Assembly (NCBI GenBank): GCA_905181625.1
Contig: CAJIYJ010000007.1
Location: 186,001-250,000, forward strand
DNA from: an uncultured Flavobacteriaceae bacterium
Lineage (GTDB): Bacteria > Bacteroidota > Bacteroidia > Flavobacteriales > Flavobacteriaceae
Direction: 5' to 3'
DNA length: 64,000 nt
The translations under genes were made by a program, and so were the position numbers. Shown here piece by piece: positions 5,892-64,000 of the stretch. The notes beneath the pieces were generated by a model. That model ran no database searches. It was given only the letters and a program-made list of their open reading frames with translations, and was not told where the DNA came from. Position 1 is the first letter of the stretch; each line of letters starts with the position of its first letter.

Positions 5892-7673
5892 CTACATTTT
5901 ATTTGGAACATCAATTCCTAACAAAGACATTGAAGATTTTATTACTAAACCAACTTTATAAGAAAGGTTCAACCTAAAACTTTTTGTCAAATTATCATCT
6001 ACTTTTAAAATTGATGTTGATTGATAATATGAATTAAAAGACTTTACAAGTTCGTAGGTATAATTAGCTACTAACGCAGGGCTCAAATTATCAGCGGAAT
6101 TTTTAATTGCTTGGGGAAATTGAGTCAATAACTTTAAAATATTTTTTTCTTTTATATTGATTTTTAAATTATGATCTACCGTTGATTTAGAGAAATTTTC
6201 TTTATTAACTAATGATTGTATTCTAGCATATGTATATTGAATAAAGGGACCTGTATTACCATTAAAATCAATAGACTCTTTGGGGTCAAATAATATTCTT
6301 TTTTTGGGATCAACTTTTAATATAAAATATTTAAGAGCTCCTAATCCAATTACACTACTAAGATTGTTTTTTTCTTCAATTGAAAATTCTTCAACTTTAC
6401 CTAATTCTTGTATTAATAAACTAGCGTTTGTTTTCATTTCATGAATTAACTCATCTGCATCTACTACTGTGCCTTCTCTACTTTTCATTTTTCCAGAGGG
6501 TAAGTCCACCATACCATAACTTAAATGATATAGTTGATTAGACCAGTCAAAACCTAATTTATTTAATATTCTAAACAACACTTTAAAATGATAATCTTGT
6601 TCATTTCCAACAGTGTAAATAACTCCACTCATTTTGGGATAATCTTTATATCTTAAATAAGCTGTGCCTAAATCTTGGGTCATATAAACTGAAGTTCCAT
6701 CTGACCTAAGTAATATCTTTTCATCTAAACCTTCATCACTTAAGTCTATCCAAACTGAACCATCTTCTTTTATAAAAAAAATATTATTATCTAAACCTTT
6801 TCTTATAATTTCTTTACCAAGCAAATAAGTTTTACTTTCATAATAATATGAATCAAAATCAACCCCTAAATCAGTGTATGTTTTATCAAAACCTTCATAG
6901 ACCCAAGAATTCATTCTACTCCAAAGTTCTATAACTTTTTCATCACCTGATTCCCATTTAATCAATAAATTTTGAGCTTCTAAAAAAATAGAAGAATTTT
7001 TTTCAGCATCTACTTTAGTATGACCATCTTTTATTAATTCAGAAATTTCTTCTTTATATATTTTATCAAAAAGAACATAATATTTCCCTACAAATAAATC
7101 ACCTTTATCACCAGTATCCTTTGGGGAAGTGTTATTCCCGTATTTTAACCAGGCTATAATTGATTTACAAATATGTATTCCTCTATCATTTATGATTTGT
7201 GTTTTATTAACTTTCTTTCCTGAAGCTTCTAATATTTTAGATATAGAATATCCTAAAAGGATATTTCTAACATGTCCTAAATGAAGTGGTTTATTGGTGT
7301 TTGGGGATGAATATTCCACTAAATATAGCGGATCACTATCAGTTGGTTTAGCAATTCCAAAATCTTCTATTTGAATAATTTCATTTAAAAATTGAATATA
7401 AAATTCACTATTAATAACAAGGTTTACAAATCCTTGAATCAAATTATAACTTTCAACATATTTAGAATTATTTACAAGAAAGACACCTATTTCACTTCCT
7501 ATTTCAGAAGGAGATTTCCTGATCAACTTAACTAAAGGAAATATCACTAGAGTAACATCTCCTTCAAAATCTTTTTTAGTAAGTTGAATTTCAATATTCT
7601 GAAAGTCAATTTCGTATTGGGAATTTAAAAATTGTGATAACTCTGCTTTTAAAATGGTATTGATATTCATCAA
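5892..7673 (-). CDS. argS: Arginyl-tRNA synthetase
   Basis: 593 residues, class I synthetase that charges tRNA-Arg. N-terminal additional domain (1-110), class I HIGH-type motif HLGH at 131-134 in PNTNKPLHLGHVRNILLG, KMSKS-equivalent KMKSREGT near 395-402, and an all-alpha anticodon-binding C-terminal domain ending with the conserved Leu/Gly/Ile-rich tail (SLLGIDVPNKM). Full length. Upstream of ffh-folD on the same strand with a 91-bp gap holding a palindrome, so ffh likely has its own control. Confidence 0.97.
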   Translation of the reverse strand: MMNINTILKAELSQFLNSQYEIDFQNIEIQLTKKDFEGDVTLVIFPLVKLIRKSPSEIGSEIGVFLVNNSKYVESYNLIQGFVNLVINSEFYIQFLNEIIQIEDFGIAKPTDSDPLYLVEYSSPNTNKPLHLGHVRNILLGYSISKILEASGKKVNKTQIINDRGIHICKSIIAWLKYGNNTSPKDTGDKGDLFVGKYYVLFDKIYKEEISELIKDGHTKVDAEKNSSIFLEAQNLLIKWESGDEKVIELWSRMNSWVYEGFDKTYTDLGVDFDSYYYESKTYLLGKEIIRKGLDNNIFFIKEDGSVWIDLSDEGLDEKILLRSDGTSVYMTQDLGTAYLRYKDYPKMSGVIYTVGNEQDYHFKVLFRILNKLGFDWSNQLYHLSYGMVDLPSGKMKSREGTVVDADELIHEMKTNASLLIQELGKVEEFSIEEKNNLSSVIGLGALKYFILKVDPKKRILFDPKESIDFNGNTGPFIQYTYARIQSLVNKENFSKSTVDHNLKINIKEKNILKLLTQFPQAIKNSADNLSPALVANYTYELVKSFNSYYQSTSILKVDDNLTKSFRLNLSYKVGLVIKSSMSLLGIDVPNKM

Positions 7674-9993: not shown

Positions 9994-11277
9994 TTACCTT
10001 AAATCTAAGTCTAAAAAATCTCTGTACTTTTCGCCAATATAAATTTGTCTTGGTCTTCCAATTGGTTCTTTATTTTCTCTCATTTCTTTCCATTGAGCAA
10101 TCCATCCTGGAAGTCTCCCTAACGCAAACATTACCGTAAACATTTCGTTGGGAATTTCTAAAGCTTTATAAATTATTCCAGAGTAAAAATCTACATTAGG
10201 ATAAAGTTTTCTATCTACAAAATATGGATCTGCAAGAGCTTCTTTCTCCAAATCTTTAGCAATTTCTAATATAGGATCAGTTATTCCAAGTTCTTTTAAA
10301 ACTTCGTCAGCTGCTACTTTTATGATTTTAGCTCTTGGGTCAAAATTTTTATAAACTCTATGTCCAAAACCCATTAATCTAAATGAATCTGATTTATCTT
10401 TCGCTTTAGCCATGAATTTTTTAGTATCACCACCATCATTTTCAATTGCTTCTAACATTTCTATAACAGCTTGATTTGCACCACCATGTAACCTTCCCCA
10501 TAAAGCAGATATGCCAGCAGAAACAGAGGCAAATAAACCAGCATGAGATGAACCTACAATTCTAACGGTTGAAGTAGAACAGTTTTGTTCGTGATCGGCA
10601 TGTAAAATCAATAATTTATTAATAGCACTCACAATTGTATCGTTTTGGATATATTCTTTATTAGGACGCTTAAACATCATTTTGGTGATGTTCTCTACAT
10701 AGCCTAAAGAATAGTCTCCATAATCTAGAGGAAGACCTTTTGCTCTTCTATATACCCAAGCAACAATAATTGGTAACTTGGCCAAGATTTTAACTATAGC
10801 ATTATACATTTCCTCTTTAGACTCAAGATCTGAAACAGAGGGATTAAATGAAACTAATGCGCTAGTTAGTGAAGAAAGAACACCCATTGGGTGAGCAGAT
10901 TTCGGAAAACTTTCTAAAATTTTCTTTAAGTCTTCATCAACTATAGAATTTTCTTTGATATCAAATAAAAACTGATCTAGTTTTTCTTGATTAGGAAGGT
11001 TGCCAAATATTAATAAGTATGCAACTTCTAAAAAATCAGCTTTTTCAGCAAGGTCTTCTATCGAATAACCTCTGTACCTTAAAATTCCTTTTTCTCCATC
11101 AAGAAAGGTTATGGCGCTTTTACATGACCCAGTGTTTTTAAAGCCTGGATCTATTGTGATTACATTAGTTTTACCACGTAAAGAACTTATGTCAATGGCA
11201 ACTTCATCCTCAGATCCTTTTATACATTCAAATTCGTAATTTTGATTACCAACATTAAGATTTGCCTTATTGTTCAT
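9994..11277 (-). CDS. gltA: Citrate synthase
   Basis: 427 residues, type II (hexameric) citrate synthase, condensing acetyl-CoA with oxaloacetate at the entry to the TCA cycle. Motifs: LILHADHEQNCSTSTVR (catalytic His region), GRLHGGANQAVIEML (second catalytic His), GFGHRVYKNFDPRA, and DFYSGIIYKAL with the catalytic Asp. I chose the ATG at 11277 (MNNKANLNVG) because the frame upstream to 11349 would overlap the eno gene by 44 bp and has no conserved sequence. Transcribed with eno upstream (28-bp gap) and the two amidinohydrolase genes downstream. Confidence 0.96.
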   Translation of the reverse strand: MNNKANLNVGNQNYEFECIKGSEDEVAIDISSLRGKTNVITIDPGFKNTGSCKSAITFLDGEKGILRYRGYSIEDLAEKADFLEVAYLLIFGNLPNQEKLDQFLFDIKENSIVDEDLKKILESFPKSAHPMGVLSSLTSALVSFNPSVSDLESKEEMYNAIVKILAKLPIIVAWVYRRAKGLPLDYGDYSLGYVENITKMMFKRPNKEYIQNDTIVSAINKLLILHADHEQNCSTSTVRIVGSSHAGLFASVSAGISALWGRLHGGANQAVIEMLEAIENDGGDTKKFMAKAKDKSDSFRLMGFGHRVYKNFDPRAKIIKVAADEVLKELGITDPILEIAKDLEKEALADPYFVDRKLYPNVDFYSGIIYKALEIPNEMFTVMFALGRLPGWIAQWKEMRENKEPIGRPRQIYIGEKYRDFLDLDLR

Positions 11278-12600: not shown

Positions 12601-13710
12601 TTATTTATTAGATTTAATAAGTTCCAAAAATTGGTCAAAAAGATAATTTGAGTCATGAGGACCAGGACTTGCTTCTGGGTGATATTGAACAGAGAAGCAA
12701 TTATTATTAATTACTTTAATCCCTGCGATAGTATTATCGTTTAAATGAACATGAGTTATTTCAATATCATCATTTAATTCTGCTTCTTCTCTATTTATAG
12801 CAAAACCATGGTTTTGAGAAGTTATTTCTCCTTTACCAGTGACTAAGTTTAAAATTGGATGATTAATTCCTCGATGACCATTATGCATTTTATAAGTTGA
12901 TATACCATTAGCTAAGGCAATTACTTGATGTCCTAAACATATTCCAAAAAGAGGTGCTTTATTTTTTAAAATATTTTTAGCTATTTCAATAGCATTTTTT
13001 AACGGCTCTGGATCACCAGGGCCATTCGAAATAAAATATCCGTCTGGCTTCCAATCACTCATTTCTTTAAAAGTAGAGCTACAAGGGAAAACCTTAATAT
13101 AAGCTTCTCTTTTTGATAAATTTTTTAAAATATTTTTTTTAATACCTAAATCTAAAACAGCAATTTTAATCTTAGAATTAGGATCACCATGAAAAAATGG
13201 TTCTTTAGCAGAAACTTTAGAAGCTAAATCCAAACCTTCCATAGAAGGTGTGTTTTTGAGATTTTTTTTCAGTTGATCAATTGAATCAACATCTGTAGAT
13301 ATCACAGCATTCATAGCGCCGTTATCTCTAATATAAGATACAAGAGCTCTTGTGTCAACATCAGAAATCGCAACAACATTATGCTTAAAGAAAAAATTCT
13401 GTAAAGAGTCGTCAGCTCTGAGCCTTGAATAAAGATTGTTAAAATTTTTACAAATCAAGCCTGCTATTTTAGGGCTGTTTGACTCAACTTCATCATCATT
13501 AACTCCATAATTACCAATATGAGCATTTGTAGTAACCATTAATTGACCAAAATAAGAAGGGTCTGTAAAAATTTCTTGATAACCAGTCATTCCAGTATTA
13601 AAACAAAGCTCACCATAAGCTTCACCTTTAACTCCTAATGATTTGCCAAAAAAAACAGTACCGTCTTGCAAAAGAATAAGCGCCTTGTTTCGATTAGAAT
13701 ATTCGTTCAT
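12601..13710 (-). CDS. carA: Carbamoyl-phosphate synthase small subunit
   Basis: 369 residues. CarA is the glutaminase subunit that passes ammonia to CarB for carbamoyl phosphate (pyrimidines and arginine). N-terminal CarA domain ([23 protein letters not shown]... [17 protein letters not shown], residues 11-52) and a C-terminal class I amidotransferase domain with nucleophile Cys in [16 protein letters not shown] near 253-268 and the His/Glu pair in [14 protein letters not shown] near 343-356. carB is not in the window. It starts 19 bp past the T-run of the intrinsic terminator of the ribosomal operon, and a -7-like box sits almost on its start codon. Confidence 0.97.
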
Positions 13711-13717
13711 TTTATTT

Positions 13718-13725
13718 CAAAAATA
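13718..13725 (-). promoter_or_regulatory. -7 promoter box before carA, possibly leaderless
   Basis: TATTTTTG on the minus strand lies between the rplQ terminator and the carA ATG, 7 nt before it. It matches TAnnTTTG exactly. A separate promoter is needed here if the terminator works. No TTG at -33. Confidence 0.4.
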
Positions 13726-13728
13726 ATA

Positions 13729-13760
13729 CAAAAAAAAGGATAAACATTAAGTTTACCCTT
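13729..13760 (-). terminator. Intrinsic terminator of the ribosomal protein operon
   Basis: On the minus strand: AAGGGTAAAC, loop TTAAT, GTTTATCCTT (10-bp stem with one G-U pair), then a run of T. It lies 47 bp after the rplQ stop and separates the 17-kb ribosomal block from carA-eno-gltA. Confidence 0.85.
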
Positions 13761-13806
13761 TGAATTGATGAAATTTATAAAAAATTTAATATATCGATGA
13801 ATCTGA

Positions 13807-14364
13807 TTACTTTTCCTCAATATTTGAAGAATTAGATTCTTTATTTTCAATATTAGATGCATCAGAAGAGTTAGTTTCTTCAACAACAGGTGTTTCTTCA
13901 ACTACGGGAGTTTCTTCAATTACTGCATCTTCAATTACAGAAGATGACTTAGATTTACTTCTTCTTCTTTTCTTCTTAGAAGAATCAGTATTGGAATTAT
14001 AAATAGTGTTATAATCAACTAACTCAATCATAGCCATACTAGCATTATCGCCTAACCTATTTCCTAACTTAATTACTCTAGTATAACCACCTGGCCTATC
14101 TCCAATTTTGACAGAAACATCTCTGAATAATTCTGTAACAGCATACTTGTCTTTTAAATAACTAAAAACAATTCTTCTGTTATGAGTAGAGTCAGTTTTA
14201 GATTTAGTGATTAATGGTTCGATATATCTCTTTAAAGCCTTAGCTTTTGCTACAGTTGTATTAATAGACTTGTGCTCAATTAAAGAACAAGCCATGTTTG
14301 CCAACATATAGCTTCTATGCGCTGTTTTTCTACCTAAATGCGCTATTTTTTTTCCGTGTCTCAT
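13807..14364 (-). CDS. rplQ: 50S ribosomal protein L17 with acidic repeat tail
   Basis: 185 residues. Residues 1-118 are a standard L17 ([17 protein letters not shown], near the exit tunnel base of the 50S subunit). Residues about 125-185 are an extension: a basic patch ([10 protein letters not shown]), then Glu/Val-rich repeats ([17 protein letters not shown]) and a Ser/Asn/Glu tail. Bacteroidota L17 proteins often carry such tails; role unknown. It is the last gene before the intrinsic terminator. Confidence 0.97.
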
Positions 14365-14373
14365 GTTTATAAA

Positions 14374-15366
14374 TTAATCTTTATCTAATTTATATTTAGA
14401 TAAATCCATACCAAAATTTAATCCTTTAACGATAACTAACTCTTCAAGTTCAGTTAAAGATTTTTTTCCAAAATTTCTAAATTTCATTAAATCACTCTTG
14501 TTAAAAGAAACTAAATCACCTAAAGTATCAACTTCAGCAGCCTTTAAACAATTTAAAGCTCTAACAGAAAGGTCCATATCAATAAGACGAGTCTTCAAAA
14601 GCTGTCTCATGTGTAATGATTCTTCATCGTAAGTTTCAGTTTGAGCAATCTCATCAGCTTCTAAAGTTATTCTCTCATCAGAGAATAACATGAAGTGATG
14701 AATTAAAGTTTTAGCTCCTTCAGTTAATGCATCTTTTGGATGAATAGAACCATCTGTAACAATTTCGAAAATTAACTTTTCATAATCAGTTTTTTGTTCA
14801 ACTCTAAAGTTCTCGATTGTATACTTAACATTTTTGATTGGTGTAAAAATTGAATCTATAAAAATTGTTCCAATTGGCGCACCAGCTTTTTTGTTTTCTT
14901 CAGCAGGAACATAACCTCTACCTTTTTCGATAGTTAATTCCATATTAAGGCTAACATTTTTCTCTAAATTACATATAACTAAATCTGGGTTTAAAACCTG
15001 AAACCCTGATATGAATTTTTGTAAATCACCTGCTAGAATTTGTTCTTGACCAAGAATAGATACTGAAATGTTTTCACTATCAACAGAATCAATTTGTCTT
15101 TTAAGACAAACTTGTTTCAGATTTAAAACAATTTCTGTTACGTCTTCTACTATCCCAGTAAGAGATGAAAATTCATGTTCTACACTGTCTATTTTTACAG
15201 ACGTGAAAGCAAAACCTTCTAAAGATGATAATAAAACTCTTCTTAGAGCATTTCCTACAGTTAAGCCATATCCAGGCTCAAGAGGTCTAAATTCAAACTT
15301 ACCTTCGAATTCAGAAGAATCAATCATTATTACTTTATCTGGTTTTTGAAAATTAAATACTGCCAT
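14374..15366 (-). CDS. rpoA: DNA-directed RNA polymerase alpha subunit
   Basis: 330 residues. N-terminal assembly domain (1-235; [20 protein letters not shown] near 33-52, the dimerisation and beta/beta' contact) and C-terminal domain (about 255-320; [23 protein letters not shown], with [11 protein letters not shown]) that contacts UP elements and activators. Full length. Located between rpsD and rplQ, the usual alpha-operon place. Confidence 0.98.
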
Positions 15367-16826: not shown

Positions 16827-16943
16827 TTATCCTTGTCTTTGTTTGAATCTAGGATTCTTTTTGTTAATTACATAAAGAGTTCCCTTTCGTCGTACTATCT
16901 TACATTCGGGACTTCTTTTCTTTACTGATGCTCTAACTTTCAT
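16827..16943 (-). CDS. rpmJ: 50S ribosomal protein L36 (cysteine-poor form)
   Basis: A 38-residue protein starting [20 protein letters not shown] and ending NPRFKQRQG, found between infA and rpsM where rpmJ is expected. Only C14 remains of the four zinc ligands of the C+ form, so this is the zinc-independent L36 common in Bacteroidota. The ATG at 16943 gives the exact family length. Confidence 0.95.
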
Positions 16944-56298: not shown

Positions 56299-57879
56299 AT
56301 GAATATTAAAACCTTATTTAAATCATTTTCTTTAATCGTAATGATTATTTTATTTATTGGTTGTAGCAGAAATAACAATTCAACTAAAAGGGGTAAAAAC
56401 ATTTCACAAGGAACAGGATTTGGAATCAACTCTAAGGACGGTGGGTTTCAATATGACAATAAATACAAAGGCCAAATGACTGGTCCTGGCTTAGTGTTTG
56501 TTGAAGGTGGAACATTCACAAAAGGAAATGTAAAAGATAATGTAATGCACGATTGGAACAATACACCAACTCAGCAATATGTAAGATCCTTTTACATTGA
56601 TGAAACTGAAGTTACTAACTTAATGTATTTAGAATATCTAGATTGGATGAAAAAAGTTTTTTCAGATATTGAAAATTTACATTCTATATACGTTGCTGCA
56701 CTTCCAGATACTCTAGTCTGGAGAAATCCCTTAGGATTTAATGAAGATATGGTAGACAACTACCTTAGACACCCTGCGTTTCAAGACCACCCTGTAGTAG
56801 GTGTTAGTTGGGAGCAAGCATCTAGATATGCGAAATGGAGAACTGATAGAGTTAATGAATTAATGTTAGTTTCGAAAGGATTGTTAAGACCAGAAGCAAT
56901 TCAAGCTGATAGTTTGAAGGATGGTTACTCATTTAATACAGATGCATACTATTTAGACCCTAGCAAAGCTTATGGAGGAAGAATGAATGAGGTTGCTGGA
57001 GATAAAGCAAAAGAAACAAATGAAGATGGTGAAGAAATAGTGAGTTATGCTGACAGACAGGATGGTATTTTACTACCTGAGTATAGACTTCCAACTGAAA
57101 CAGAATGGGAGTATGCAGCACTAGCTTTGAGTGAAATAAGAGCAGAAAACATATACAGAGGGAAGAAGAAATTTCCATGGGATGGTGAATACACAAGATC
57201 AGGCAAGAAAAAGAACTTAGGAGATCAATTAGCTAACTTTAAGCTTTCTGCTGGAGATTATGGTGGAATAGCAGGGTGGTCAGAAACTGGTTCGGGAATA
57301 ACTACTGCAGTTAGATCCTATCCCCCTAATGATTTTGGACTATACGGGATGGCTGGAAATGTAGCAGAATGGGTAGCAGATGTCTACAGACCAATAATTG
57401 ATGAAGCTATTAATGATTTTAACTATTACAGGGGAAGTGTTTATACAAATCCTTCAATTGGTGATGACGGAAAGGTAATTACAATTGATCCTGATAGCGC
57501 TACATTTGACAACCTACCAGGTTCTGTTAAAGAAGAAGTAGTTTCAGACTCTATATATAGAGTAAACTACTCTGTGGGTGATAATAGAAATTTTAATGAT
57601 GGTGATGTAAATTCAATTAGAGAATATGGTTTAGAAGGATCTGTTGAAGATTCTATGTATGACTCTCCTACATCAGAATCAAAAGAAGGAACAATAACTT
57701 TAATAAATAATGAAGCTCGAGTATTTAAGGGTGGGTCCTGGTTAGATAGAGCTTATTATCTAGATCCTGCTCAAAGAAGATTTTTGCCTCAGGATATGAC
57801 CAATAATTTTATTGGCTTCAGGTGTGCAATGTCATATTTAGGAGAATCGAGAAATGCTAAAAAGCCTAAAAAAAGATAA
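56299..57879 (+). CDS. gldJ: Gliding motility / T9SS lipoprotein GldJ
   Basis: 526 residues. Lipoprotein signal with lipobox FIGC (C22). The rest is a formylglycine-generating-enzyme-like (sulfatase-modifying factor) domain: PGLVFVEGGTFTKGNVKDN near 63-81, YIDETEVTNLMYLEYLDWM near 98-116, RLPTETEWEYAAL near 264-276, YGMAGNVAEWVADVYRP near 350-366 and VFKGGSWLDRAYYLDPAQRRF near 474-494. GldJ is structural, not a known FGE. It stabilises GldK and is needed for gliding/T9SS in Flavobacterium. Followed by murF with a 55-bp gap, as in Flavobacterium. Confidence 0.93.
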   Translation: MNIKTLFKSFSLIVMIILFIGCSRNNNSTKRGKNISQGTGFGINSKDGGFQYDNKYKGQMTGPGLVFVEGGTFTKGNVKDNVMHDWNNTPTQQYVRSFYIDETEVTNLMYLEYLDWMKKVFSDIENLHSIYVAALPDTLVWRNPLGFNEDMVDNYLRHPAFQDHPVVGVSWEQASRYAKWRTDRVNELMLVSKGLLRPEAIQADSLKDGYSFNTDAYYLDPSKAYGGRMNEVAGDKAKETNEDGEEIVSYADRQDGILLPEYRLPTETEWEYAALALSEIRAENIYRGKKKFPWDGEYTRSGKKKNLGDQLANFKLSAGDYGGIAGWSETGSGITTAVRSYPPNDFGLYGMAGNVAEWVADVYRPIIDEAINDFNYYRGSVYTNPSIGDDGKVITIDPDSATFDNLPGSVKEEVVSDSIYRVNYSVGDNRNFNDGDVNSIREYGLEGSVEDSMYDSPTSESKEGTITLINNEARVFKGGSWLDRAYYLDPAQRRFLPQDMTNNFIGFRCAMSYLGESRNAKKPKKR

Positions 57880-57934: not shown

Positions 57935-59206
57935 ATGGATATTGACAAGCTATATACTTATTTTAAAGAATGTGAAGATATTTCTACAGATTCGAGAGTT
58001 TTAAAAAAAAACAGTTTATTTTTCGCACTAAAAGGTGATAATTTTGACGGAAATGAATACGCTTTAGAAGCGCTAGACAAAGGAGCTAAATATGCTATAA
58101 TAGATAGTCAAATTTCAGATAATCCTAAATTTATTAAAGTTAAAAACGTTCTAAAAACCTTACAATCATTATCTGCCCTCCATAGAACAAAATTGACAAA
58201 TACAACTATTATAGCTATAACTGGAAGTAATGGGAAAACAACAAGCAAAGAATTAATAAATTCTGTACTTAGTTTTGGAAATAAGTCTAATTCAACAAAA
58301 GGCAATCTAAATAATCATATCGGGGTTCCTTTAACTTTATTAGGAATAAAGGAAACATCAGAGTTTGCTATAGTTGAGATGGGAGCTAATCATATAAAAG
58401 AAATTTCATTTTTAACAAATCTTGTTAAACCGGATATAGGTTATATTACAAATTTTGGAAAAGCACACTTAGAAGGGTTTAGAGATTTAAATGGAGTTAT
58501 TAAGGGTAAAACAGAACTTTACGATTGGCTAATAAAAAATGACAGGATCATACTAATCAACAATGATGATGCTATTCAAAATAAATTCAAAAAAGAAAAC
58601 TCTATAACATTCAGTGTTAATAAAAAATCTAATTATAATTTTAAAAAAAATACAAAAAACTTTATTTCAGTTAGTTATAAAAATATAGAAATTAACAGTC
58701 AATTAATTGGTGATTATAATTTTTCGAATATTGGAGCAGCAATAGCGCTTGGATTAAATTTTAAAATTCCTATTCAAAATATTAAAAAAGCTATAGAATC
58801 CTATATCCCTAAAAACAATAGGTCACAAATAATTAAAAAAAATAATCAAAAAATAATTTTAGATGCATATAACGCCAACCCTAGTAGTATGTTAGCTGCC
58901 ATAGATTCATTTTTGAATATAGAAGGCTCAAAAGCTATAATATTAGGAGACATGTTTGAATTAGGACAAGAATCCAGTAGTTTACATTTAGAAATAATCA
59001 ACTATTGCTTAAAAAGTAAAATCAATAAAATTTATTTAATAGGAAATGAGTTTTATAATGAACATAACAAAAAAGCTAAATCATTATTTTTTAAAACAAA
59101 ATCTGATTTTAAAAAATATTTAAAATCTAATAGCATTAAAGAAAACAATATTCTTATAAAGGGCTCTAGAGCGATGAGAATGGAAGAAATAGCAGACATT
59201 CTATAA
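57935..59206 (+). CDS. murF: UDP-N-acetylmuramoyl-tripeptide:D-Ala-D-Ala ligase
   Basis: 423 residues. N-terminal MurF substrate domain (STDSRVLKKNSLFFALKGDNFDGNEYALEALDKGAKYAI, 17-55), P-loop TGSNGKTT at 96-103, VEMGANHIKEISFL near 149-162, and C-terminal LDAYNANPSSMLAAI near 310-324 with GDMFELG near 338. Completes the UDP-MurNAc-pentapeptide. The gldJ-murF adjacency is a flavobacterial feature. Confidence 0.96.
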   Translation: MDIDKLYTYFKECEDISTDSRVLKKNSLFFALKGDNFDGNEYALEALDKGAKYAIIDSQISDNPKFIKVKNVLKTLQSLSALHRTKLTNTTIIAITGSNGKTTSKELINSVLSFGNKSNSTKGNLNNHIGVPLTLLGIKETSEFAIVEMGANHIKEISFLTNLVKPDIGYITNFGKAHLEGFRDLNGVIKGKTELYDWLIKNDRIILINNDDAIQNKFKKENSITFSVNKKSNYNFKKNTKNFISVSYKNIEINSQLIGDYNFSNIGAAIALGLNFKIPIQNIKKAIESYIPKNNRSQIIKKNNQKIILDAYNANPSSMLAAIDSFLNIEGSKAIILGDMFELGQESSSLHLEIINYCLKSKINKIYLIGNEFYNEHNKKAKSLFFKTKSDFKKYLKSNSIKENNILIKGSRAMRMEEIADIL

Positions 59207-61601: not shown

Positions 61602-62894
61602 TTATTTATTCTTTTTTAAATAATCTAAAGTTAATGTTGTCATTGACTTGATTCCTGTTAACATTGCTGAATCATCGACATAGAAATCAGGTGTGTGATG
61701 AGGTGCTGCTTTTGAAGGGTCAGTTCCCTTTTTAGCACCGCCAATAAAAAAATATATACCTGGGATTTTTTCTTGATAAAAAGAAAAATCTTCTGCTCCT
61801 GTAATAGCATTCATAGAGTGAACATTTTCAGAACCATTTATTCTTTTTAGAGATGGCAACATTTGATTATACAGTTCAGGGTCATTGTAAGTAATAGGGT
61901 AGCTAACTAGATACGTAATTTTTGCTTTTGCATTATTAGCTTCAGCAATATTGTAAACTATCTCATCCAATCTTTTTAGAACTGTTTTTTTCATGTTTTC
62001 ATCAAGAGTTCGGATTGTTCCTAACATATAAAGACTTTCAGGTATTATATTGCTTCTTACTCCTCCATGAATACTTCCAATAGTTACTACTGCCGCTGCT
62101 TCAGTCAATGGCATACTTCTACTAACTATAGTTTGAATTGAGTTAATCATCTGAGAAGCTGTAACAATTGGATCTACGCCTGTCCAAGGAGTTGATCCAT
62201 GAGTTTGAATCCCTTCTATATCAATCCTAAACTCATTAACAGCCGCCATTATTCCTTTTGGTCTAACGTAAACTTTTCCTGCACTAATTTGAGACCAAAT
62301 ATGAAGACCAAAAATAGCATCAACGTCTGGATTTTTCAGAACGCCCTCTTTTACCATTAATTCAGCCCCTCCTTCCTCACCAACTGGTGCTCCTTCTTCT
62401 GCAGGTTGAAATATAAATTTTATAGTTCCAGGAATCTGATCTTTTATTTCATATAATACTTTAGCTACTCCTAATAATATGGCCGTATGAGTATCGTGTC
62501 CACAGGCATGCATAACTGGAACTTCTTCTCCATTATATTCACCAATCATTTTAGAGGCCCATGGCAAATCAGCTCGTTCCTTTACTGGCAAACCATCAAT
62601 ATCCGCTCTTAAAGCTACAACAGGACCAGGCTTCCCACCCTTAAGAACAGCTACAACTCCAGTTTTTGCTACGCCAGTTTGAGGATTTAAACCGATTTTC
62701 TTTAATTCTGCAGCTATTCTATCGGCAGTTTTAAATTCTCTATTGCTCAATTCTGCATTTTCATGAAACCAATGTCTGAGTTCAATTATATCAGATTCAT
62801 AATTGGAAGACAATTCATTAATTTTTTTGTCAAAATTCTGAGAATAACTTGTGAAAGATAGGATCAGAAAAAATAAATATATTTTTTTATGCAT
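61602..62894 (-). CDS. Exported M20 family amidohydrolase (peptidase D / hippurate hydrolase-like)
   Basis: 430 residues. Signal peptide 1-19 (cleavage after SYSQ). Metal-binding motifs: RHWFHENAELSNRE (40-53), HACGHDTH (129-136, with C131 and H133), FQPAEEGAP near 165-173 and a C-terminal ITGAEDFSFYQEKIPGIYFFIGG near 363-385, all as in N-acyl-amino-acid/auxin-conjugate amidohydrolases. The GTGs and dimerisation domain are complete. Periplasmic location is inferred. It is the last host gene before the mobile-element junction, starting 15 bp from the tRNA remnant. Confidence 0.9.
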   Translation of the reverse strand: MHKKIYLFFLILSFTSYSQNFDKKINELSSNYESDIIELRHWFHENAELSNREFKTADRIAAELKKIGLNPQTGVAKTGVVAVLKGGKPGPVVALRADIDGLPVKERADLPWASKMIGEYNGEEVPVMHACGHDTHTAILLGVAKVLYEIKDQIPGTIKFIFQPAEEGAPVGEEGGAELMVKEGVLKNPDVDAIFGLHIWSQISAGKVYVRPKGIMAAVNEFRIDIEGIQTHGSTPWTGVDPIVTASQMINSIQTIVSRSMPLTEAAAVVTIGSIHGGVRSNIIPESLYMLGTIRTLDENMKKTVLKRLDEIVYNIAEANNAKAKITYLVSYPITYNDPELYNQMLPSLKRINGSENVHSMNAITGAEDFSFYQEKIPGIYFFIGGAKKGTDPSKAAPHHTPDFYVDDSAMLTGIKSMTTLTLDYLKKNK

Positions 62895-62908
62895 AGTTTT
62901 AAATTTAG

Positions 62909-62930
62909 TGGGTCATACTGGATACGAACC
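62909..62930 (-). mobile_element. Candidate att site: tRNA 3'-end remnant
   Basis: Read on the minus strand the 22 bp contain the T-loop heart GGTTCGTATCC, T-stem strand CCAGT and acceptor strand ATGACCC plus A. No D-arm, anticodon or 5' acceptor strand (GGGTCAT) is found within 90 bp on the minus strand, so this is not a functional tRNA. tRNA 3' ends are classic tyrosine-integrase att sites. Confidence 0.6.
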
Positions 62931-62994
62931 GATGAAATATATACTACTCAAAGTGTTCTTTATCAATTACTTATAGTTTTATTTTTATTAAACA

Positions 62995-63036
62995 TATCCC
63001 CACTTTGGGGATAATTTTGTCCTCATATTGGGGATA
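62995..63036. repeat. Two spaced dyads with a common GGGGATA half-site
   Basis: TATCCCC-ACTTT-GGGGATA (62995-63013, perfect) and TGTCCTC-ATATT-GGGGATA (63018-63036, imperfect). The GGGGATA half-sites and 5-nt loops are the same; centres are 23 bp apart. They look like a tandem protein-binding site. Confidence 0.6.
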
Positions 63037-63063
63037 ATGGCTAAAATCAAACCATTAAAATCC

Positions 63064-63086
63064 TCCACATACAATTCCACATACAA
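63064..63086. repeat. Tandem 11-bp direct repeat
   Basis: TCCACATACAA at 63064-63074 and again at 63076-63086 (12-bp period). A partial copy, CCACATAC, recurs at 63244-63251. The length and position resemble integrase arm-type or excisionase sites. Confidence 0.5.
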
Positions 63087-63095
63087 GATAATAAG

Positions 63096-63129
63096 AAAAA
63101 AGGGATGCATAAAATTAATTATACACCCC
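63096..63129 (-). terminator. Intrinsic terminator of the small-gene operon
   Basis: Minus-strand hairpin with arms GGGGTGTATAA and TTATGCATCCC-type (nine pairs, two mismatches) followed by TTTTTT, about 110 bp after the stop of the HTH gene. Confidence 0.5.
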
Positions 63130-63237
63130 TCTTAACACAATCAAACTATTATGAAAAGTTGATAGATTGGAAATTGGATTTAGGTTGTTGTGAGTCTATC
63201 AAATATAAATATGATAGAGTTTTAATTATTTAACCCC

Positions 63238-63489
63238 TTAATCCCACATACTATCAAACTCTGTTGAAGTAGTGATATTAAAATGTATTTTGATACAATC
63301 AATTATTGCATCTTTTGAGTAATACCTTCTTCCTCTGAAGGTTGTTCCTTTAATTAGCTTCTCTCTTTGGAAATTCCATAATGTTTTAGGAGATACTCCC
63401 AAAATCTCTAATGTTTGTTCTCTTGTGTGTAGTGGTTCACTTTGTAGGAGTTCAGTATTAACTCCGATTTTACTTAATAGTTCTTGCAT
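63238..63489 (-). CDS. Excisionase-like helix-turn-helix protein
   Basis: 83 residues. A MerR/Xis-type winged HTH: TREQTLEILGVSPKTLWNFQREKLIKGTTFRGRRYYSKDAII (22-63), with recognition helix in SPKTLWNFQREK and wing FRGRRYYS. The protein is small, as are phage/ICE excisionases and AlpA-like regulators. It is the gene nearest the putative att site and points to it. Could instead be a transcriptional regulator of the element. Stop is TAA overlapping a CCACATAC copy. Confidence 0.7.
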   Translation of the reverse strand: MQELLSKIGVNTELLQSEPLHTREQTLEILGVSPKTLWNFQREKLIKGTTFRGRRYYSKDAIIDCIKIHFNITTSTEFDSMWD

Positions 63490-63496
63490 AGTTATT

Positions 63497-63742
63497 TTAA
63501 TATATTAGTAGTTCTTCTTCTGTGTTATCAAGTTTAGTTTCATAATCTAAATCTTGAATTGATTTAATTTCTATTTCTATCTCTTCTATACAATCTTTCC
63601 AACTACCAATCGTATCTAATAAGTTTATCATCGCATCTGTTTCTACATTACCGAAATCGTTACTCAAATTATATATTCTATCCAAGTGGATATCAATCTT
63701 TTCTGTTGAATTATAAATCTTGGTTGTGGCCAGTTTTATCAT
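63497..63742 (-). CDS. Small protein of unknown function
   Basis: 81 residues, no family recognised. Predicted mostly helical, acidic in its C-terminal half (DCIEEIEIEIKSIQDLDYETKLDNTEEELL). Start overlaps the upstream stop by 4 bp (ATGA) and it ends 7 bp before the HTH gene, so it belongs to the same operon. Confidence 0.6.
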   Translation of the reverse strand: MIKLATTKIYNSTEKIDIHLDRIYNLSNDFGNVETDAMINLLDTIGSWKDCIEEIEIEIKSIQDLDYETKLDNTEEELLIY

Positions 63743-63999
63743 CTTGTAGTTAGAGACTCTATTATCTCGTTCAAATCATCTTGTTCCTCTAGAGTTGCAA
63801 ATACAATATCTTCTATCATTTGTTTAAGTTCATCTCTACTCATTGAACCGACCTCATCATCTTCTTCCATCTCATCAGTTGGATGTGCTCTTAAATCATC
63901 TGTATCTCCGTATCCCATCTCACGAAGCACCTCCTCTAAATCAACTAAATCTTCTGGTTTTGATTGAAGTTTATTTGGGATATTCTGTTTCCTATTCAT
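63739..63999 (-). CDS. Small acidic protein of unknown function
   Basis: 86 residues from an ATG at 63999; the frame could extend past the window edge. Very acidic (DLVDLEEVLREMGYGDTDDL, DEMEEDDEVGSMSRDELKQMIEDIV) and helical; residues 53-80 could form an amphipathic helix. No family recognised. Small acidic proteins are common in phages and conjugative elements, but function is unknown. Confidence 0.55.
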   Translation of the reverse strand: MNRKQNIPNKLQSKPEDLVDLEEVLREMGYGDTDDLRAHPTDEMEEDDEVGSMSRDELKQMIEDIVFATLEEQDDLNEIIESLTTR

Positions 64000-64000
64000 T

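Follow-up and report, generated by a model that had tools for sequence, protein, structure and literature searches.

A 10,849-bp stretch of this Flavobacteriaceae genome, lying between an intact tRNA-Val gene and a displaced duplicate of that gene's 3' end, is almost certainly an integrated and recently mobile cargo island that targets the tRNA. This reading draws together the intact tRNA at one end, the displaced 3' fragment at the other, a tyrosine integrase inside, and empty sites in a genome of the same genus (G313) and in one of a second genus (G695). The window is the whole stretch of DNA analysed (64,000 nucleotides, contig C7:186001-250000) and positions without a prefix refer to it. 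Locus L003 is C7:246001-264000, and an L003 coordinate plus 60000 gives the window scale.

A displaced tRNA-Val 3' end and its intact partner

The original prediction described a 22-bp tRNA 3'-end copy at 62909. The fragment is real and isolated, though it comprises 23 bases and starts at 62908 (GTGGGTCATACTGGATACGAACC, 62908-62930). No tRNA was called by ARAGORN within the window, so the displaced copy stands alone. Its left neighbour is an M20 peptidase/amidohydrolase gene (61602-62894), and the small genes to its right gave weak family matches only. With up to 3 mismatches allowed, a single match was obtained in the window (0.00 expected from 100 shuffles) and 2 in the whole genome (1,863,534 bases), where the reversed control pattern gave 0. 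The second genomic match was the end of an intact minus-strand tRNA-Val(GAC), 10,849 bp rightward of the copy, and is the partner with the same terminal bases that had been predicted to lie in this direction. Copy and tRNA match at 22/23 positions and the first 16 are all identical. The tyrosine integrase foreseen beside the intact tRNA was found just inside the element (Table 1). Rfam (E 1 or less) returned the tRNA plus two chance-level matches. A base-composition boundary was also sought and none was seen, GC being 0.26-0.35 in all sliding windows.

Table 1 Features of the element and its ends (window scale unless prefixed; L003 plus 60000 equals window scale)
Feature	Position	Strand	Evidence or remark
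Far attachment site, displaced tRNA-Val 3'-end copy	62908..62930	.	Pattern and junction comparison
Element left end, running on past the window to the tRNA at C7:259757	62931..64000	.	
83-aa HTH_17-type protein, candidate excisionase/directionality factor	63238..63489	-	Pfam, PHROG
81-aa small protein, function unassigned	63497..63742	-	
141-aa protein, function unassigned	63739..64000 (true start 64164)	-	Cut by window end
174-aa protein	L003 4164-4688	-	Weak 21% relative in G310 element
226-aa ParB-like protein	L003 5173-5853	+	PF02195 E 4e-8
287-aa HNH/endonuclease-VII-like protein	L003 5870-6733	-	PHROG 1035 E 3e-14; Pfam HNH_4 E 0.018 only
~160-aa protein with putative signal sequence	L003 7019-7498	+	Relatives 75% (G310), 62% (G239)
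Methyltransferase region, two frames	L003 7595-7936 and 7987-9153	-	PF01555 E 8e-7
234-aa PLP-type protein	L003 9157-9861	-	33% identity to phage proteins
201-aa small serine recombinase	L003 10127-10732	+	PF00239 E 1e-15
264-aa cation-efflux transporter (metal exporter)	L003 10961-11755	-	PF01545 E 3e-18
546-aa tyrosine integrase	L003 12012-13652	-	PF00589 E 1e-9; start codon 104 bp from tRNA
Intact tRNA-Val(GAC)	C7:259757-259832 (L003 13757-13832)	-	tRNA call

The insertion site in other genomes of the genus

The M20 peptidase gene was present in 21/22 genomes of the genus, and 16 of these 21 loci had an intact tRNA-Val(GAC) within the adjoining stretch (up to 1.5 kb examined). Of the other five, one is our own genome, three showed no tRNA and no copy in that stretch, and the fifth had a copy with 3 mismatches but no tRNA call. 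A relative had been expected to show the tRNA next to the amidohydrolase gene with no element between them, and G313 has this empty site. In G313, tRNA-Val lies ~14 bp from the peptidase start, the same distance that separates the displaced copy from the peptidase gene in our genome. When aligned to G313, the two flanks of the element (L003 1601-2930 and 13753-16239) fall side by side, at identities of 83.5% and 70.4%, and overlap by 27 bp, which corresponds to the attachment site.

Across the 16 loci with both genes, the distance from peptidase to tRNA ranged from ~14 to 1058 bp. As its length and content differ among species, the interval separating the M20 gene from tRNA-Val (62894-62908) is a variable spot apart from the element. 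A whole-element DNA search of the 22 genomes found no second copy in the genus; 11/22 matched at E 0.001, and outside our own genome the matches were confined to single genes or short stretches.

The same ends at the same tRNA in a second genus

A metagenome bin labelled Formosa sp. Hel1_33_131 (G686), placed in a different genus by the genome collection (18 genomes), carries a 99% identical integrase beside tRNA-Val. The two integrase genes differ at 7/1641 nt (2 codon changes synonymous, 5 non-synonymous), a number too small to reveal selection for function, and the tRNA genes of the two hosts agree at 76/76 positions. The element in this bin is split over two contigs with its interior unassembled, so near-identity is limited to the two ends (~0.3 kb and 2.0 kb). 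On the second contig (C42), the first 300 element bases stand at the contig end together with the far attachment copy, and 325/327 positions agree with ours, one of the two differences falling in host flank.

Host sequences around the two insertions were far more divergent. Behind the element end on C42 are genes that we take to be murF and gldJ. Both also lie left of our site (57935-59206 and 56299-57879), and the encoded proteins share 47.6% (MurF) and 50.8% (GldJ) amino acid identity between the hosts. The host flank on the G686 integrase contig had no match to ours in place; a block of it, presumably ffh-folD, showed 67% identity to our genome, with a range of 66-69% across the genomes of the genus that matched it (20/22). 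Judged on these comparisons, vertical inheritance of the element in the two genera is untenable. Because near-identical ends occupy the same tRNA in a different genus, we consider that the element jumped recently.

Faulty assembly or binning of the second host, with another strain's element misjoined to Formosa contigs, has to be weighed here, since the identical tRNA gene could act as a false overlap and the element sits at contig ends. Such a chimera is nevertheless very unlikely. Nine sister loci were read, out of 18 genomes that matched (G686 included): five were without the element and had tRNA-Val 31-145 bp from murF, one had a tRNA-Val at ~1.2 kb, and three had no tRNA in the stretch examined. 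G695 represents an empty site, with a tRNA side 97.9% identical to the G686 flank and a 92% identical murF, and the two G686 contigs are therefore the two sides of one filled site. Two contigs, one per junction, thus join the element to both sides of a locus that adjoins in G695. In addition, the far-junction repeat measures only 23 bp, and the name of the tRNA-junction contig, k119, points to assembly overlaps exceeding the tRNA in length.

Comparison of filled and empty sites also located the crossover. At 62924 the displaced copy has A where the tRNA has T. The same A occurs in the displaced copy of G686 and the empty sites of both genera have T, so the A is element-borne. From these junctions, strand exchange is placed within the 16-bp core GTGGGTCATACTGGAT (62908-62923), and base 62924 onward came with the element. 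We read the core as tRNA discriminator, acceptor strand and T-stem strand.

The locus might instead be an immobile remnant of a prophage or larger island, given its broken methyltransferase gene and attachment copies that differ at 1/23 bases. We regard this as improbable: the base in question recurs in the displaced copy of the second host and hence does not reflect decay, the integrase frame is open and almost the same in the two genera, and each genus has empty sites.

Gene content of the element

Thirteen main ORFs occupy the recently mobile island. The original prediction had suggested a defence, conjugation or satellite system as cargo, which was borne out in part only. No conjugation, phage structural or complete defence system was recognised among the element proteins. 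What the cargo does contain is a metal exporter together with a ParB-like protein; a broken methyltransferase gene stands beside one for a PLP-type protein, and further genes encode an HNH/endonuclease-VII-like protein, a small serine recombinase and a putative secreted protein. Pfam and PHROGs scans of the element proteins gave no match to capsid, portal, terminase, primase, relaxase or conjugation genes; relaxase and conjugation genes were sought with Pfam in the 13 main proteins, and capsid, portal, terminase and tail genes with PHROGs in 12/13 (the exporter left out). A PHROGs tail-category match to the integrase (E 0.03) was discounted. Prophage and ICE readings were dropped owing to the absence of structural, packaging and relaxase matches.

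The 83-aa protein, whose gene lies ~300 bp inward of the far attachment site, matched PF12728 (E 9e-5) at 23.1 bits, under the cut-off of 27, and PHROG 66 excisionase at E 2e-4. A single-sequence structure model had a mean pLDDT of 84; a PDB sequence search returned nothing significant and NCBIfam nothing at cut-off. Domain type and position point to an excisionase, and because the HTH matches fall under the Pfam cut-off we retain the word candidate for it. For the gene of the 141-aa protein, a relative with 72% DNA identity lies on another contig of the second host (C3).

A gene for a PLP-type protein adjoins one for a DNA methyltransferase (L003:7595-9861; L051; L052); the two domains are fused in Erythrobacter phage R6L and are encoded by neighbours in Microcystis phage Mae-JY30. 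In our element, the PF01555 match lies on a 113-aa part and the 388-aa part is without a Pfam match; this break is a sign of some decay. The PLP-type protein and the methyltransferase are a possible DNA-modification pair.

Two palindromic sites, 21/23 alike, lie at L003:5847-5869 and 10012-10034 (65847 and 70012), one where the ParB gene ends and the other ~90 bp before the serine recombinase gene. With one mismatch allowed, the genome has no further copy of them. These are possibly operator or partition-type sites. We do not claim the 16-bp palindromes (L003 5851 and 10016) as serine-recombinase sites, as their central two bases differ. A like pair was not listed in six other element loci, at thresholds that caught only one of the two sites here.

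Before the exporter gene, ~125 nt of non-coding sequence (L003:11761-11883) recurs in part, at 74-80%, in G313, G307 and G686, with no exporter seen adjoining the G313 and G307 copies. We read this stretch as a dispersed repeat or cassette boundary.

An integrase family at several tRNA genes

A profile built from five integrases had a full-length match in 3/22 genomes of the genus (9/22 matched at E 1e-10, from which short partial matches were dropped). Among 397 genomes of the family, 8 matches at E 1e-50 were found in 7, one genome having two copies and one match being a half-gene at a contig end. An earlier protein search of 299 genomes, a sample overlapping the 397, gave the integrase in 3 genomes, and a sample of the order gave 1/296, our own genome only. 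Residues R307, H432, R435, H459 and Y468 were identical in 5/5 aligned rows, and K344 in 4/4 though not in all five; these six we take to be the catalytic residues. Searched against PDB sequences, the integrase profile found a single weak match, at the C-terminal end (E 2e-4). Within the genus, the two remaining integrases share 28% and 29% identity with ours, and the closest in other genera are those of G686 (99%) and a Polaribacter MAG (51%). Since our integrase is this distant from both and has closer relatives in other genera, the three carriers of the genus acquired their integrases separately.

In all integrase loci read (11/11), a tRNA lies on the integrase 5' side at 104-222 bp (Val 2, Phe 4, Met 3, Asp 2). 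Far attachment copies were located in 5/11 loci. Three of these have spacings of 10,849 bp (22/23 bp, our element), 6,164 bp (24/24) and 7,558 bp (31/31), and the remaining two, at 6,012 bp (15 bp) and at 16,896 or 17,190 bp (15 bp, two copies), are less sure because the repeats are short. Five of the six loci without a far copy are cut by contig ends, and in L072 none was present in the stretch searched. The two 15-bp copies in L074 (1489 and 1783) are 294 bp apart, which suggests repeated insertion at one tRNA-Asp. Genome G319 carries two family integrases (L071:1154-2518 and 13281-14648; L072) and, beyond the attachment pair, another ParB-methyltransferase-like gene. In a second near pair, at tRNA-Met, G052 and G319 have elements that share 87.6% identity over 2.0 kb, compared with 74% for a gene we take to be lepA; this is weaker evidence because lepA and integrases evolve at different rates.

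Cargo varied among the family elements and included cation efflux (2), MerT/ArsR (1), type I restriction (1) and ParB-methyltransferase fusions (2). The five elements with both ends had a serine recombinase in 4 and a small HTH_17-like protein in 5; in two elements the latter call reflects BLAST clustering with a Pfam-matched member, a cluster outside which our protein falls. The putative secreted-protein gene has 80% DNA identity to a gene of the G310 element, the sole match between these elements at E 1e-4. It is bracketed by 29-bp direct repeats (28/29; L003:6733-6761 and 7513-7541), and gives the impression of a module inserted next to the methyltransferase gene. Between our element and that of G686, integrase identity is 99.6% and that of the next 325 nt is 89%, the differences sitting in the first two thirds and the exporter start being identical. 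With the G686 interior unassembled, this pattern would fit cargo replacement between constant ends.

Probable mechanism of movement

We are very confident, from comparison of the loci and from the integrase family, that the tyrosine integrase integrates the element at the tRNA and leaves the tRNA functional; a circular form would recombine with the final 16 bp of the gene. Excision would, with reasonable probability, be promoted by the small HTH_17 protein. Arrival in new cells probably requires outside help, from phage particles, vesicles, a conjugative helper or DNA uptake; we infer such a helper because transfer genes are unrecognised. As to its kind, virions are a possible carrier and a conjugative helper a less likely one, vesicles or DNA uptake making up the remainder. 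Swappable cargo, such as the metal exporter, would travel with the element, and a host benefit through metal export is plausible.

Were virions the carrier, the element could be a phage satellite, induced and packaged by a helper phage as PICMIs are and as has been proposed for tycheposons. This is a possibility that we entertain with some doubt. The size of 6-11 kb in 4/5 elements with both ends, the tRNA target, the combination of integrase and HTH_17-type protein, restriction/modification genes as cargo, and PLP/methyltransferase genes with phage relatives all agree with it. Yet matches to primase, terminase and capsid genes are absent, seven IMG/VR scans (run without a positive control) gave no relative, and plasmid and phage collections yielded distant integrases only, the best phage integrase being 32.5% identical among 20 of 26 records. 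A conjugative helper would imply an integrative and mobilizable element, moved via an oriT or an unrecognised relaxase. Cross-genus transfer would accord with this, as would the plasmid-like serine recombinase and ParB genes, but Pfam scans of the 13 main proteins gave no relaxase or coupling-protein match and we hold it to be unlikely.

Relation to known elements and significance

As a kind, the tRNA-targeted cargo island is already known. Islander tRNA-targeted islands show no difference in principle from ours, their ends being marked by a regenerated tRNA and a displaced fragment, with a tyrosine integrase (PMC4383910). The nearest characterised case that we found is the 10K genomic island of Riemerella anatipestifer, of ~10 kb and 12 ORFs, which excises as a circle (PMC6764341). 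It likewise has a tyrosine integrase, direct repeats at both ends beside a tRNA and a flavobacterial host, whereas its repeat is 53 bp and its target tRNA-Arg, and the likeness is one of size, layout and host (PMC6764341). Tycheposons, compared by their description, are tRNA-bordered cargo islands of streamlined aquatic bacteria with a tyrosine recombinase; unlike ours, they carry nutrient genes (PMC10872708). PICMI phage satellites resemble our element in being small islands of marine origin that encode an integrase and a regulator, the latter searched for with AlpA or PF12728 models, and in carrying defence cargo in some cases; the PICMI model, however, needs a primase and a fis site, whereas our element has no primase match and a tRNA-Val target (PMC10803314). 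The available part of a flavobacterial phage survey does not contain the word satellite (PMC8776804). Charybdis, a marine mobile element, was considered and rejected, being ~4.6 kb with another host and other genes.

No description of this integrase and element family was recognised among the papers listed from open PMC texts, which did not include the original tycheposon and VEIME papers. Only tentatively, and with considerable doubt, do we suggest an undescribed family of compact, helper-dependent Flavobacteriaceae cargo elements, in which one integrase lineage would switch between at least four tRNA targets and cross genera, a serine recombinase would aid exchange of cargo modules, and the interior would be replaced between near-constant ends.

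Movement of small islands that lack recognisable transfer genes is difficult to observe. The occurrence of the same ends at the same tRNA in two genera, at >99% identity and with empty sites in both, is a clean natural experiment: it dates the transfer as recent, pins the crossover to 16 bp, and asks what carries the element. What goes beyond the routine is this two-genus, two-empty-site evidence of recent movement, together with the surrounding family. The two recombinases and the differing cargo within the family offer a testable model for how metal-export and DNA-modification/restriction genes may spread.
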